This document shows, piece by piece, positions 3,649-7,428 of a stretch of DNA of 64,000 bases (positions are counted from its first letter, which is position 1; each line of letters opens with the position of its first letter). Origin of the DNA: Nocardioides nitrophenolicus (GTDB lineage Bacteria > Actinomycetota > Actinomycetes > Propionibacteriales > Nocardioidaceae). Made by a program: the position numbers and the translations under genes. The notes beneath the pieces are model-generated. The model was not told where the DNA came from and searched no databases. It saw nothing but the letters and a program-made list of their open reading frames with translations. Location: assembly GCF_016907515.1 (NCBI RefSeq), contig NZ_JAFBBY010000001.1, positions 2,480,001-2,544,000 on the forward strand. The letters run 5' to 3'.

Positions 3649-5046
3649 TCAGCCAGGGTTGACGATCCGGGCCAGCTCGAAGTGCATCGGGTCGGTGTAG
3701 GCCCAGTCGCCGCCCCACGCGAAGCCCCACTTCTTGAAGATCGCCACGATGCCCCGGTCCATCTGGCCGACGGTGCCGCGCTGGTTGCCGGGCACGTTGA
3801 GGTCGAGGGCCAGGCCGAAGGAGTGGTTGGACAGCTGGGTGGAGCCGGCGATGAAGCGCGGGTTGTAGCAGCCGGAGTACTGGTAGATCTTGTCGCCCAG
3901 CCCCGTGGTCTGGATCTCGGCGAGCGCCGCCTTGAGCTGCGGCATCATGAACCGGTTGCAGGTGACCCGCCCCAGGATCGGGACCACCTCGGTGACGATG
4001 TGGGCCTTCACCCAGGCGGCGTCGGGCGCGATCCGGCCGCCGCCGACGGGCGTGTAGCGGTAGACCCCGACCGCGTCGCTGAACGCGCCGACCGGGATCG
4101 CCTGCTGGTAGGTGCCGGGGTCGATGCCGCTCTGCGCGACGATGTCGAGGGCGCTGATGGAGAACCGCTCCTTGCCGAACGCCTTCTCGATCTTCTTCCG
4201 CACGACCTGCGGGGACGACAGGCCGGTGTTGATCAGCACGGCGTTGTCCTGGGGCAGCCCGAGCGTCTCGCCCCACTTCTCGTTGACGACCGCGTCGACC
4301 CCGCCGACCCCGCCCGGGAACAGCGCGCCGATGTGGATCCGCTCCTCGTCGACAGCGAGGTAGCCCTTGCTGTCGGGCACCAGCTCCTGCTCGAGCCGCT
4401 TCGGGATGGCGACCTCGCCACCCGCGATCCGGTCCCACTGCTCCTGGAACCGAGCGGAGTCGTTGCCGGTGAACCGGCGGTACTCGGCCGGGTCGACGGC
4501 GGCGATGTTGAAGTACTTGTTCTCCACCGTGAACTGGCCGTAGGACAGCTGCGTCGAGGCGGCGACGCCGGGCTTGCCGCGGACCGTCACGCCGGTGATG
4601 GCGGCCAGGTCGTCCTTCGACAAGGTGTCCTGGGAGACGAGGAGCAGGTCGTCGCCGTACTGCTTGCCGTCGAACGCCCCCGGCGGCGGTACGGCGTGCG
4701 CCGGGTCGGCGACCGCCGTCGTCGCGGTGGCGGTCGTGGTGGCCGCCGCGTCGGTCGGGTCGGGCTTCGGCTTCGGGGCGCCGCTCTCCTGGGGCGTGCC
4801 GCAGGCGGCGAGGGCGAGCAGGGCAGCGGCAGCCGCGAGCCCGGCCACCGGCCGATCCCCCAGGGCGCGGCTCCCGAGCCCCGGCCTACTACGCGACGTT
4901 TCCGACTCGATCTGGCGGCGTTGGCGTCGCTCGAAGGGCCATCCAGCACGACGTCGCTCCGCCGCCTTGCCAGATCGGCCGGAAGCGTCGCTCGCTACGG
5001 CCGTGGCTCGAGAGCCACGCACCAGGGCGCGTCGCACCAACCCCAT
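3649..5046 (-). CDS. M15-family peptidase-like lipoprotein (D-Ala-D-Ala carboxypeptidase fold), signal peptide interrupted
   Basis: The C-terminal ~130 residues carry M15 signatures: SNHSFGLALDLN (metal-ligand His...Asp) and DPMHFEL (metal-ligand His), with GGDWAYTDP before it. This suggests a murein peptidase on the outer membrane face. ATG 5046 has GGAGG about 10 nt upstream. The lipobox LAAC puts the lipidated Cys at residue 82, far too deep, because ~54 codons of palindromic repeat (see 4860-5031) lie between MGLVRRAL and the hydrophobic stretch. Removing them puts Cys at 28, an ordinary lipoprotein signal. Whether the current protein is exported, or translation starts inside, is unclear. 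Orthologues elsewhere would show the original start. Confidence 0.8.
   Translation of the reverse strand: MGLVRRALVRGSRATAVASDASGRSGKAAERRRAGWPFERRQRRQIESETSRSRPGLGSRALGDRPVAGLAAAAALLALAACGTPQESGAPKPKPDPTDAAATTTATATTAVADPAHAVPPPGAFDGKQYGDDLLLVSQDTLSKDDLAAITGVTVRGKPGVAASTQLSYGQFTVENKYFNIAAVDPAEYRRFTGNDSARFQEQWDRIAGGEVAIPKRLEQELVPDSKGYLAVDEERIHIGALFPGGVGGVDAVVNEKWGETLGLPQDNAVLINTGLSSPQVVRKKIEKAFGKERFSISALDIVAQSGIDPGTYQQAIPVGAFSDAVGVYRYTPVGGGRIAPDAAWVKAHIVTEVVPILGRVTCNRFMMPQLKAALAEIQTTGLGDKIYQYSGCYNPRFIAGSTQLSNHSFGLALDLNVPGNQRGTVGQMDRGIVAIFKKWGFAWGGDWAYTDPMHFELARIVNPG
4860..5031. mobile_element. MITE-like palindromic element inserted in frame in a coding sequence, with 10-bp direct repeats
   Basis: CCAGGGCGCG occurs at 4860-4869 and again at 5022-5031. 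Between them is a 152-bp segment whose two halves are imperfect inverted repeats over about 45 nt. Shared blocks include GGCTCYCGAGCC near each end, then GCGACGYTTCCG, then CGATCTGGC (4908-4916 and its complement 4969-4977). Segment plus one direct repeat equals 162 bp, exactly 54 codons, so the host frame stays open. The right end has ~5 extra bases between terminal repeat and direct repeat. No transposase is encoded, so it would need one in trans. Mobility is inferred. Confidence 0.7.
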
Positions 5047-5732: not shown

Positions 5733-5926
5733 CAGCCTTCGAGGGTGAGGGCGAGCACGGGGCACGCCTGCACGGCGGCGTAGACGTGCGCCCGGTCCTC
5801 CTCGGGCGGGGCCGAGTCGAGGACGACGACCTTGTCCTCGTCCTCGTCCACCTCGAAGTAGTCGTTGGCCATGGCCTCGCACATGCCGAGGCCCTCGCAC
5901 TTGTCCAGATCGGCGACGATCTTCAT
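5732..5926 (-). CDS. [3Fe-4S]-type ferredoxin
   Basis: A 64-aa acidic protein, MKIVADLDKCEGLGMC at the N-terminus and ACPVLAL near the C-terminus. The Cys pattern C-x5-C...CP is that of the single-cluster 3Fe-4S ferredoxins that feed actinobacterial P450s and other oxygenases. Start ATG overlaps the alkB stop (ATGA), and its own stop overlaps the tetR start. It probably donates electrons for alkane hydroxylation alongside, or instead of, the fused rubredoxin; which one is used cannot be read from sequence. Confidence 0.9.
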   Translation of the reverse strand: MKIVADLDKCEGLGMCEAMANDYFEVDEDEDKVVVLDSAPPEEDRAHVYAAVQACPVLALTLEG

Positions 5927-7428
5927 GCCTGCACCTTCTCGGGGTCGAACGGGATGAAGTCGATCTTCTCGCGAACCCCGCAGTCGGGGCAGCACCAGTC
6001 GTCGGGGATGTCGGTCCAGGCGGTGCCGGCGGCGAAACCCTCGTGCTCGTCGCCCGCGGCGACCTCGTAGACGTAGGAGCAGCCGGGACAGCGCGCGGCC
6101 AGCACCTCGCCGACGAACTTCTGGGCGAACGGGTCCTCGGTCTTCACGGCGTGCTCGACCGGCGGCGGGAACTTGGCGAGGTACGCCGCCTCCTTGCCGG
6201 GCGCGATGTTGGCGAGGGTGACGTCGCCGTCGAGGTGCTCGACCACGCGGTGGTCCATCACCTTGCGCCACAGCGGCGGGATCAGCGCGAGGTTGATCAT
6301 GCCGGCGTACCCGGTGGGCAGGGCCGGGGACTCCTTGAAGTCGCGCAGCGCCTGGTAGCGCCGGGTGGGGTTGGCGTGGTGGTCGCTGTGGCGCTGCAGG
6401 TGGTAGAGGAAGATGTTGGTGACGATGTTGTTGCTGTTCCAGCTGTGCATCGGCAGCACCCGCTCGTAGCGCTGCTTCTCGCCGACCCGCTGGCGCTTGA
6501 GGCCGTAGTGCTCGAGGTAGTTGACGACCTCGAGCAGCGAGAAGCCGAAGACGACGGTGATCGGGATGTAGACCGCGACCTCCCAGCCGTTGAGCGCGAT
6601 CACGGCCGCCCACAGCGCGACCGACATCGCCCAGGCGTTGAGCACGTCGTTGCCGACGTGGAAGGGGTGGGTGCCCTTGCGGCGGTAGCGCTTGGCCTCG
6701 ACCTCCCACGAGCTCTTCAGCGAGCCCCAGACCGTGCGCGGCCAGAAGCGGTACAGGCTCTCGCCGAGGCGGGAGGACGCCGGGTCCTCGGGCGTGGCGA
6801 CGCGGACGTGGTGGCCGCGGTTGTGCTCGATGTAGAAGTGGCCGTAGAAGGTCGGCGCCAGGGTGATCTTGGCCAGCCAGCGCTCGACGGACTCCTTCTT
6901 GTGGCCCAGCTCGTGGGCGGTGTTGATGCCGATGCCGACGACGCCGGCGATCGACAGCGCCCACAGCGCCTTCTCCCACCACGGCAGCTCGAGGTGGTCG
7001 GCCATCAGGTTGGCGCTCAGGTGAGCGTCGCCCCAGTCACCGAGGCCGACGTGGTTGAGCAGCCAGGCGACCGGGTTGCCCTCGCCGATGATGTAGTAGC
7101 CCGCGAACACCAGGGCGAACATCATCGGCACGTAGGCGAAGACCACCCAGCGGTAGTACTTGTCGTTCTCGAGCTCCTCGATGACCTCGTCGGGCGGGTT
7201 GCTCTGGTCGGTGCCCATCGCCAGGTCGAGCAGCGGGATCAGGAAGTTGACGAGGAAGGGCGCGACCAGGGTGAATCCCCACCAGCCGCCCGTCGCGATG
7301 TAGGCGAGGGCGAAGAGCACGCCGAAGCCGGGGACCATCAGCCCCCACAGCCACAGGTAGCGCTTCTTGTCCTTCCACCTCTCGGTGGATCCCTCGGGCA
7401 CCGTCGCACCGACGATCGGTCCGGTCAT
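5923..7428 (-). CDS. alkB: Alkane 1-monooxygenase fused to C-terminal rubredoxin
   Basis: Integral-membrane diiron enzyme that hydroxylates n-alkanes at the terminal carbon. The eight-histidine set is complete: HELGH (172-176), EHNRGHH (201-207), NYLEHYG (303-309) and LQRHSDHH (344-351). Several hydrophobic segments fill residues 24-300. Residues ~445-495 are a rubredoxin with CPGC (447-450) and CPDC (480-483), so the electron carrier is built in, as in other actinobacterial AlkB fusions. ATG 7428 follows AAGGAGG by 6 nt. It heads an operon with ferredoxin and tetR and is divergent from a Ser/Thr kinase gene. Confidence 0.96.
   Translation of the reverse strand: MTGPIVGATVPEGSTERWKDKKRYLWLWGLMVPGFGVLFALAYIATGGWWGFTLVAPFLVNFLIPLLDLAMGTDQSNPPDEVIEELENDKYYRWVVFAYVPMMFALVFAGYYIIGEGNPVAWLLNHVGLGDWGDAHLSANLMADHLELPWWEKALWALSIAGVVGIGINTAHELGHKKESVERWLAKITLAPTFYGHFYIEHNRGHHVRVATPEDPASSRLGESLYRFWPRTVWGSLKSSWEVEAKRYRRKGTHPFHVGNDVLNAWAMSVALWAAVIALNGWEVAVYIPITVVFGFSLLEVVNYLEHYGLKRQRVGEKQRYERVLPMHSWNSNNIVTNIFLYHLQRHSDHHANPTRRYQALRDFKESPALPTGYAGMINLALIPPLWRKVMDHRVVEHLDGDVTLANIAPGKEAAYLAKFPPPVEHAVKTEDPFAQKFVGEVLAARCPGCSYVYEVAAGDEHEGFAAGTAWTDIPDDWCCPDCGVREKIDFIPFDPEKVQA

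Follow-up and report, generated by a model that had tools for sequence, protein, structure and literature searches.

A palindromic element with a conserved core and exchanged outer arms lies in frame in a lipoprotein peptidase gene of Nocardioides nitrophenolicus

Introduction

Rickettsia palindromic elements (RPEs) are described, in the accessible part of the source, as palindromes of ~150 bp that lie in frame within genes and are translated, nearly half of them being located in genes (PMC10969869). REP and REPIN sequences, which go together with RAYT, are palindromes of 20–40 bp with an unpaired tetranucleotide tag, either CGTC or GTAG, and the accessible text counts two RPE families among the CGTC-tagged palindromes (PMC3733652). 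Two further systems are relevant: IStrons, in which a structured RNA rides on an insertion sequence (PMC4227781), and IS1272, for which inverted-repeat-replacing transposition is described (PMC5678879).

Here we analyze a palindromic element in Nocardioides nitrophenolicus (genome G000), located in a window of 64,000 nucleotides, the whole stretch of DNA analyzed, to which coordinates refer unless a locus or contig is named. Judged by the accessible description of the RPEs (PMC10969869), the element is of similar size, equally palindromic and inserted in frame, the likeness being one of description. It differs from the RPEs in that copies within genes look rare (10 of 159 by a loose test that misses the peptidase copy), its core is strand-specific with covarying pairs, and its outer arms are exchanged between subfamilies. 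With bacterial MITEs of the IS5/IS630 type it shares a short, non-autonomous build, long terminal inverted arms, frequent CTAG at the ends and multiple copies; unlike them, the family has one conserved core under ~39 unrelated arm types, and no cognate autonomous element was found in the own genome for two of these types. Palindromic repeats in many copies per genome are also a feature of REP and REPIN (accessible part of PMC3733652), but the Nocardioides element, at ~160 bp and with paired ends resembling terminal inverted repeats, lies outside the REP size range. Its strand-specific core recalls both REP/RAYT and IS200/IS605 systems; the replication bias reported below would agree with IS200/IS605 elements only with an active antisense strand. 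IStrons, as far as described in the available portion of PMC4227781, offer a parallel for an RNA carried by a mobile element; they consist of a group I intron ribozyme and an insertion sequence, whereas the Nocardioides element has no recognized catalytic RNA family and is too short for a transposase gene. Palindromes as targets, as outlined in the accessible part of PMC5678879, could explain variable arms around a constant core; IS1272, however, is a full insertion sequence, and in Nocardioides arms and core are jointly absent at one clean empty site.

Elements of this kind are usually filed as DNA duplex palindromes, and the strand-specific pairing described here points to a single-stranded selected form. 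No description of the family was found in the literature covered, which comprised titles and the beginnings of abstracts and lay outside most subscription journals.

An in-frame insertion in a lipoprotein gene

The host gene encodes a predicted lipoprotein with an intact M15_4 domain (PF13539 Peptidase_M15_4, E = 2.1e-15). The insert comprises 162 bp, or 54 codons, within the signal peptide region. From the ATG, the reading frame runs uninterrupted through MGLVRRAL, the 54 added codons, a hydrophobic stretch and the lipobox, the cysteine of which is at position 28 without the insert and at position 82 with it. The initial annotation had arrived at the same frame by adding one direct repeat to a near-palindromic segment lying between 10-bp repeats. 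We located both copies of the repeat, CCAGGGCGCG, with starts 162 bp apart (Table 1), and the insert folds far better than shuffled sequences (z = −5.1 as DNA and −6.3 as RNA; 0 of 200 shuffles equal it in each).

Table 1 Features of the peptidase gene and its insert, in window coordinates
Feature	Coordinates	Strand	Basis or remark
CDS, lipoprotein M15-type (D-Ala-D-Ala carboxypeptidase-like) peptidase, 465 aa	3649..5046	-	ORF list, Pfam, orthologues
Peptidase start codon ATG	5046-5044	-	Insertion after codon 8
Palindromic element	4863..5022	-	Empty site in G014, family copies in the own genome, fold
Direct repeat CCAGGGCGCG, copy 1	4860..4869	.	Sequence, family copies, empty site
Direct repeat CCAGGGCGCG, copy 2, the native target sequence	5022..5031	.	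Present in the G014 empty site
Conserved core TGGCAAGGCG...CAACGCCGCCA	4913..4972	-	Common to subfamilies; AAGGCG/CAACGC internal loop nearly invariant, inner helix covarying
5' outer arm (core sense)	4973..5022	-	Terminal arm of a variant GGGCGTGTCTCCCAAGTC type, with second internal-loop motif GTAGCGAGCG
3' outer arm (core sense)	4863..4912	-	Pairs with the 5' arm; has CGCGTAGTAGGCC, partner of the second motif

The repeats are present at both ends, as annotated, yet a 10-bp duplication of the target would not fully account for them. In an orthologue from another species (G014, see below), the empty site already has CGCGCCCTGG on the coding strand, and copies of the same subfamily elsewhere end in ..ACACGCCC-TAG; the element's own end therefore matches the target by ~7 bases. 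In line with this overlap, the CGCGCCC of repeat copy 1 (coding strand) aligns also with the element's own right end elsewhere. The length of the duplication can thus not be fixed from the peptidase site alone, and its true value lies between 2 bp (TG) and 10 bp. If a 2-bp CA/TG duplication is assumed, the element is 160 bp long; the 162-bp insertion can be framed anywhere from 4860-5021 to 4870-5031. The repeat of 10 bp, which overlaps the element's own end, exceeds the 2–5 bp expected and counts against the explanation that we favor below. At the sole other own-genome locus with a clean left junction, the right side is rearranged, so that a putative target duplication can be read at the peptidase site only.

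Close to the peptidase gene, at window positions 5923-7428 (minus strand), a fatty-acid desaturase-family domain is fused to rubredoxin (PF00487 and PF00301). A small ferredoxin-like ORF and a TetR-like ORF, both named by eye, lie beside this gene.

Empty site and history of the insertion

An exact empty site is found in G014, putatively N. carbamazepini, the orthologue of which is 77% identical and differs by precisely 162 bp: the first 25 bases, ATGGGGTTGGTGCGACGCGCCCTGG, are the same, and the gene continues without the insert. Of 88 genomes of the genus, 83 have an orthologue of the peptidase at E ≤ 1e-100. Among the 50 orthologue loci that were fetched, two contain the element by a core covariance model, those of N. 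nitrophenolicus and Nocardioides daeguensis (G034), and the other 48 lack it. These absences, the empty site and the further copies in the own genome all bear out the initial annotation, which had seen in the segment a small non-autonomous palindromic element inserted in frame.

The N. daeguensis insert shares site, length and frame with that of N. nitrophenolicus, and neither contains an indel. According to the initial annotation, orthologues carrying the 54 codons, together with a lack of other copies in the genome, would mark the segment as native coding sequence. One orthologue does carry the codons, but further copies exist, and the insertion shared by the two species is not native. A native origin, to which we attach next to no probability, is ruled out by the exact empty site and the 48 of 50 loci without the insert; the many copies elsewhere argue against it as well.

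Identity between the two in-gene copies is 95%, compared with 85–87% to six other copies of the subfamily (and 66–67% to a seventh, L036, in which an indel shifts the alignment row). This closeness, far greater than that to other copies, makes it unlikely that the site was hit twice independently. The protein tree groups N. daeguensis with G104 (support 91/90), a genome without the insert; a tree of the flanking DNA of the three genomes gives no clear grouping (8.8/41), and at synonymous sites the two carriers are the closest pair (distance 0.239, compared with 0.311 for G034–G104 and 0.388 for G000–G104). The branching is thus ambiguous. A single insertion before the split of N. nitrophenolicus and N. 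daeguensis would be the simplest history, and loss of the insert in G104 is a possible alternative that is not needed. The locus would then present a clean case of a mobile palindrome that became part of a bacterial secreted protein and outlived a species split.

Evolution of the insert within the gene

Between the two carriers, the 54 codons contain 11 base differences (dN 0.072, dS 0.069, dN/dS ~1.04), while the rest of the gene has a dN of 0.098 and a dS of 0.254 (dN/dS 0.38). The 28 central codons of the insert are identical. The inserted amino acids look unconstrained and the core bases appear to be kept, on numbers that are small and with the proviso that a poorly mutable core would give the same picture. 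The fold of the N. nitrophenolicus copy has 60 pairs, four of which change in the N. daeguensis sister without any being broken: one by a double change from C-G to U-A and three via G.U. The sister's fold has 64 pairs, and three of these are unpaired in N. nitrophenolicus (C/A for A-U, A/A for G-C and U/C for G-C), so the stem is kept better in N. daeguensis. Counted in both directions, conservation of the hairpin in place is incomplete, which weakens the case that it is kept within the peptidase gene and counts against the explanation favored below.

The initial annotation had left two outcomes for the protein, a disabled or relocated peptidase or a tolerated leader. The leader is very unusual, and an open frame is not rare in this family, where a mean of 3.7 of 6 frames is open per element, as against 2.2 of 6 in base-shuffled copies; the insertion might thus have disabled the gene, its frame being open merely because the element is poor in stops. 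Against this, the gene is intact in two species with no indel in either insert, and the mature part is under purifying selection: its dN/dS of 0.39 between the carriers falls within the range of the nine other pairs among five species (0.19–0.40) and resembles that of uninserted pairs, giving no sign of decay. We consider disablement improbable. Tolerance is better supported by the frame open in two species, the intact M15_4 domain and the dN/dS of the mature part; the insert would then, on translation, form a long basic n-region still accepted by the machinery of secretion and lipidation. As for other insertions in genes, two of the 10 rows that pass the loose open-frame test were later dropped as false, and the test misses the peptidase gene's own copy because this lies too near the start codon.

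Family size and distribution

A DNA search of the own genome returned five near-full copies, including that in the peptidase gene, and eight that share the core only. A model built from 13 copies, R1, matches the core of the peptidase copy at G000:C1:2484888-2484982 and finds 25 copies in the own genome at E < 1e-4 (the peptidase copy and 24 others) and 27 at E ≤ 1. The weakest of the 25 (3807560, E = 5e-5), in which the core finder sees no core, is still counted, also in the replication tally below. At E ≤ 1e-3, R1 matches 36 of 58 genomes, namely the own genome, 26 of 36 other members of the genus and 9 of 21 genomes from other families of the order, where matches are weaker and were counted by E value. 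The highest copy number in one genome is 36.

The exact core pattern occurs in 101 stretches of the species collection. Of these, 89 are labeled Nocardioides or Pimelobacter, and the other 12 come from Streptomyces, Amycolatopsis, Microlunatus and MAGs (six from one MAG), which suggests that the family is found mostly in Nocardioides. Carriage by phages or plasmids is not supported: the exact core pattern was absent from viral contigs, and blastn of the peptidase copy against plasmids and phages gave no match. In four contigs of MAG WLJH (L190, L201, L205 and L207), the core lies no more than ~115 bases from the contig start, as if the element had broken the assembly.

For the comparisons that follow, a fuzzy core finder yielded 233 candidates. 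Dropping 66 without arms of 40–90 nt, six by a core filter and two by eye left 159 elements, which include related copies and are not independent.

A constant core under exchanged arms

The elements are built in layers. The outermost is an outer arm of ~20 bp, which is subfamily-specific and falls into ~39 types among the 159 elements by rough clustering. Next inward comes a second motif that is found with many arm types, GTCGCGAGCG at the 5' side lying opposite CGCGCAGCAG, and then a variable helix; many subfamilies have GTGCGTGC on both sides, which pairs with itself via G.U only. The innermost layer reads TGGC-AAG-GCG-helix...helix-CAA-CGC-N-GCCA and includes the loop. A core of ~60 bp is thus enclosed by outer inverted arms that differ completely between subfamilies, giving a family in which the ends of the mobile unit change while the core stays constant. 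Family size, this modular build and the strand-specific structure described below go beyond the initial annotation.

Many elements carry CTAG near their ends. In the 30-nt end zones, assigned by a heuristic, it occurs at both ends in 45 of the 159 elements, at one end in 43 and at neither in 71, and in 0 of 316 control zones. CTAG is itself palindromic and may or may not reflect a target duplication. Another subfamily has CTNAG adjoining GGATCC-type arms; at one of its sites, the stop codon of the upstream gene abuts the element, and four relatives have no element there, in a setting with a rearranged right side. At locus L051 (~1606-2507; G000:C1, ~449.5-450.4 kb), ~0.9 kb besides the element is absent in four relatives.

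Strand-specific pairing

Mismatches in the stem are strongly asymmetric. Read in core sense, three zones of the stem give G.T to A.C ratios of 385:10 (the 11 innermost positions), 329:70 (middle) and 184:63 (outside) over 161 rows, and of 180:6, 163:35 and 74:29, respectively, over the 66 rows that are less than 80% alike; each set includes the same two false rows. With the innermost zone excluded, the ratios are 513:133 and 237:64. A mutational strand bias might contribute to the G.T excess, although deamination of the lagging-strand template would be expected to give the opposite sign. The predicted RNA fold of the sense strand is more stable than that of the antisense strand in 159 of 159 elements (means of −118.9 and −96.8 kcal/mol), and windows from the left flank, used as a control, divide 72 to 83.

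The core pairs also covary. In an alignment of 63 of the 66 representatives, from which the two false rows and a copy with a tandem duplication (L044) were left out, 90.8% of cells pair and 17 of 22 core pairs show two-sided change. No shuffle among 500 equals it on any of the five measures. When slid, the structure scores far lower, but its derivation from the same sequences gives it an advantage in that comparison. Within the inner helix of the core, two pairs in the middle depart from standard pairing in about half of the 63 rows (34 and 30, respectively), which counts against the explanation favored below. Taken together, mismatches, fold stability and covariation suggest that the selected form is most likely one strand folded on itself, as RNA or single-stranded DNA, and not the duplex palindrome.

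A known RNA family was rejected, as no core searched has an Rfam match. The peptidase copy gave no covariance-model match in Rfam 15 at E ≤ 1, and nine other loci gave five matches at E ≤ 1, all below the gathering score and none overlapping the core.

Orientation relative to replication and genes

The core-sense strand runs against the replication fork in 50 of 62 mapped copies (p = 1.2e-6), with the origin assumed at dnaA and the terminus opposite. The gene dnaA lies at 2.653 Mb in G000 and near base 1 in G025 and G032; opposed copies number 19 of 25 in G000, 23 of 27 among the copies listed in G025 (36 in total) and 8 of 10 listed, of 12, in G032. Two genomes outside the tally, G001 and G027, have 2 of 3 and 1 of 1 opposed among the copies listed (3 of 11 and 1 of 6). 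Over the window, GC skew is too faint to corroborate the replichore. Beside codirectional genes, called by a GC3 heuristic, 43 elements are antisense and 15 are sense, with 16 antisense and 8 sense when only representatives are counted; in the peptidase gene, core sense is mRNA sense. Replication and gene direction are usually correlated, and the bias may thus be attributed to either.

Such a bias, and a hairpin specific to one strand, would fit elements that move as single-stranded DNA via an HUH/Y1 transposase recognizing the hairpin, as in REP/RAYT or IS200/IS605-like systems, and not via a DDE enzyme. The core sense, however, corresponds to the leading-strand template, the wrong one for the reported preference for the lagging-strand template if the core sense is active. 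Long inverted arms with CTAG at one end or at both, as in 88 of 159 elements, also look more DDE-like. Overall, single-stranded mobility appears unlikely.

Mobilization and exchange of ends

The element has the build of a MITE: its 160 bp lie within the 50–500 bp of this class, it contains no transposase gene and has arms paired to the ends, and dispersed copies have moved as units, with one exact empty site. We consider it probable that it is a MITE-like element with a structured RNA (or single-stranded DNA) core and exchangeable transposase ends, tolerated in frame. In a common ancestor with N. daeguensis, the whole unit would have transposed into the part of the peptidase gene that encodes the signal peptide. 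Arms and core are jointly absent at the empty site and near-identical whole units lie at unrelated loci, which argues for mobilization in trans via the outer arms. These arms may serve as terminal inverted repeats for DDE transposases that cut TA, CTAG or TNA-type sites, and different subfamilies may have acquired ends for different transposases. CTAG and TNA targets are those of IS5/IS630-type families. The core, in turn, may be retained for the specific hairpin that it forms as RNA or single-stranded DNA; expressed as RNA, it would be predicted to adopt the paired structure described above. What keeps the core of a palindromic element conserved, and whether non-autonomous elements switch transposase by switching ends, are now testable.

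For two arm types, a search of the own genome that allowed up to three mismatches revealed no autonomous element with matching ends, which counts against the favored explanation. The type-A end has 13 matches there, of which 10 are ends of known copies; the other three, read as folds and ORF lists, are without a partner end.

It is conceivable that the core alone is mobile and settles in the loops of pre-existing palindromes, such as terminators or MITEs, the arms being the old palindromes. The core is conserved under unrelated arms, a coreless solo hairpin of 38 bp with similar ends exists (L308, G000:C1:3111687), and in L294 (G000:C1:3492266) a similar outer arm and second motif enclose, where the core would be, an inner palindrome of quite another kind. 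In contrast, the whole 162 bp, outer arms included, are absent from the G014 orthologue, six subfamily copies outside the peptidase gene, in two genomes, are units of arm and core with 94–100% identity, and many arm types have the middle motif GTCGCGAGCG/CGCGCAGCAG in common. We consider movement of the core alone improbable. Within the favored MITE-like reading, ends and cores might be swapped by recombination between palindromes, which the solo hairpin, the L294 palindrome and a 72-bp internally deleted copy with similar ends and no core (L303, G000:C1:451943-452014) would fit.

A broader proposal, to which we lean less than to its opposite, is that these elements constitute a structured RNA family of actinobacteria spreading by hitch-hiking: a hairpin core with the nearly invariant AAGGCG/CAACGC loop would have been packaged repeatedly between the terminal repeats of many unrelated transposases, and its fold largely kept inside the peptidase frame after speciation.

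Further variants of the build were observed. L180 and L239 are minimal forms, consisting of the core, GTGCGTGC-like flanks and a short outer stem without the long arms. In the copy at L044 (1482-1584; G000:C1:190357-190453), the 5' arm of the core, TGGCAAGGCGGCGGAGCGC, is tandemly duplicated.
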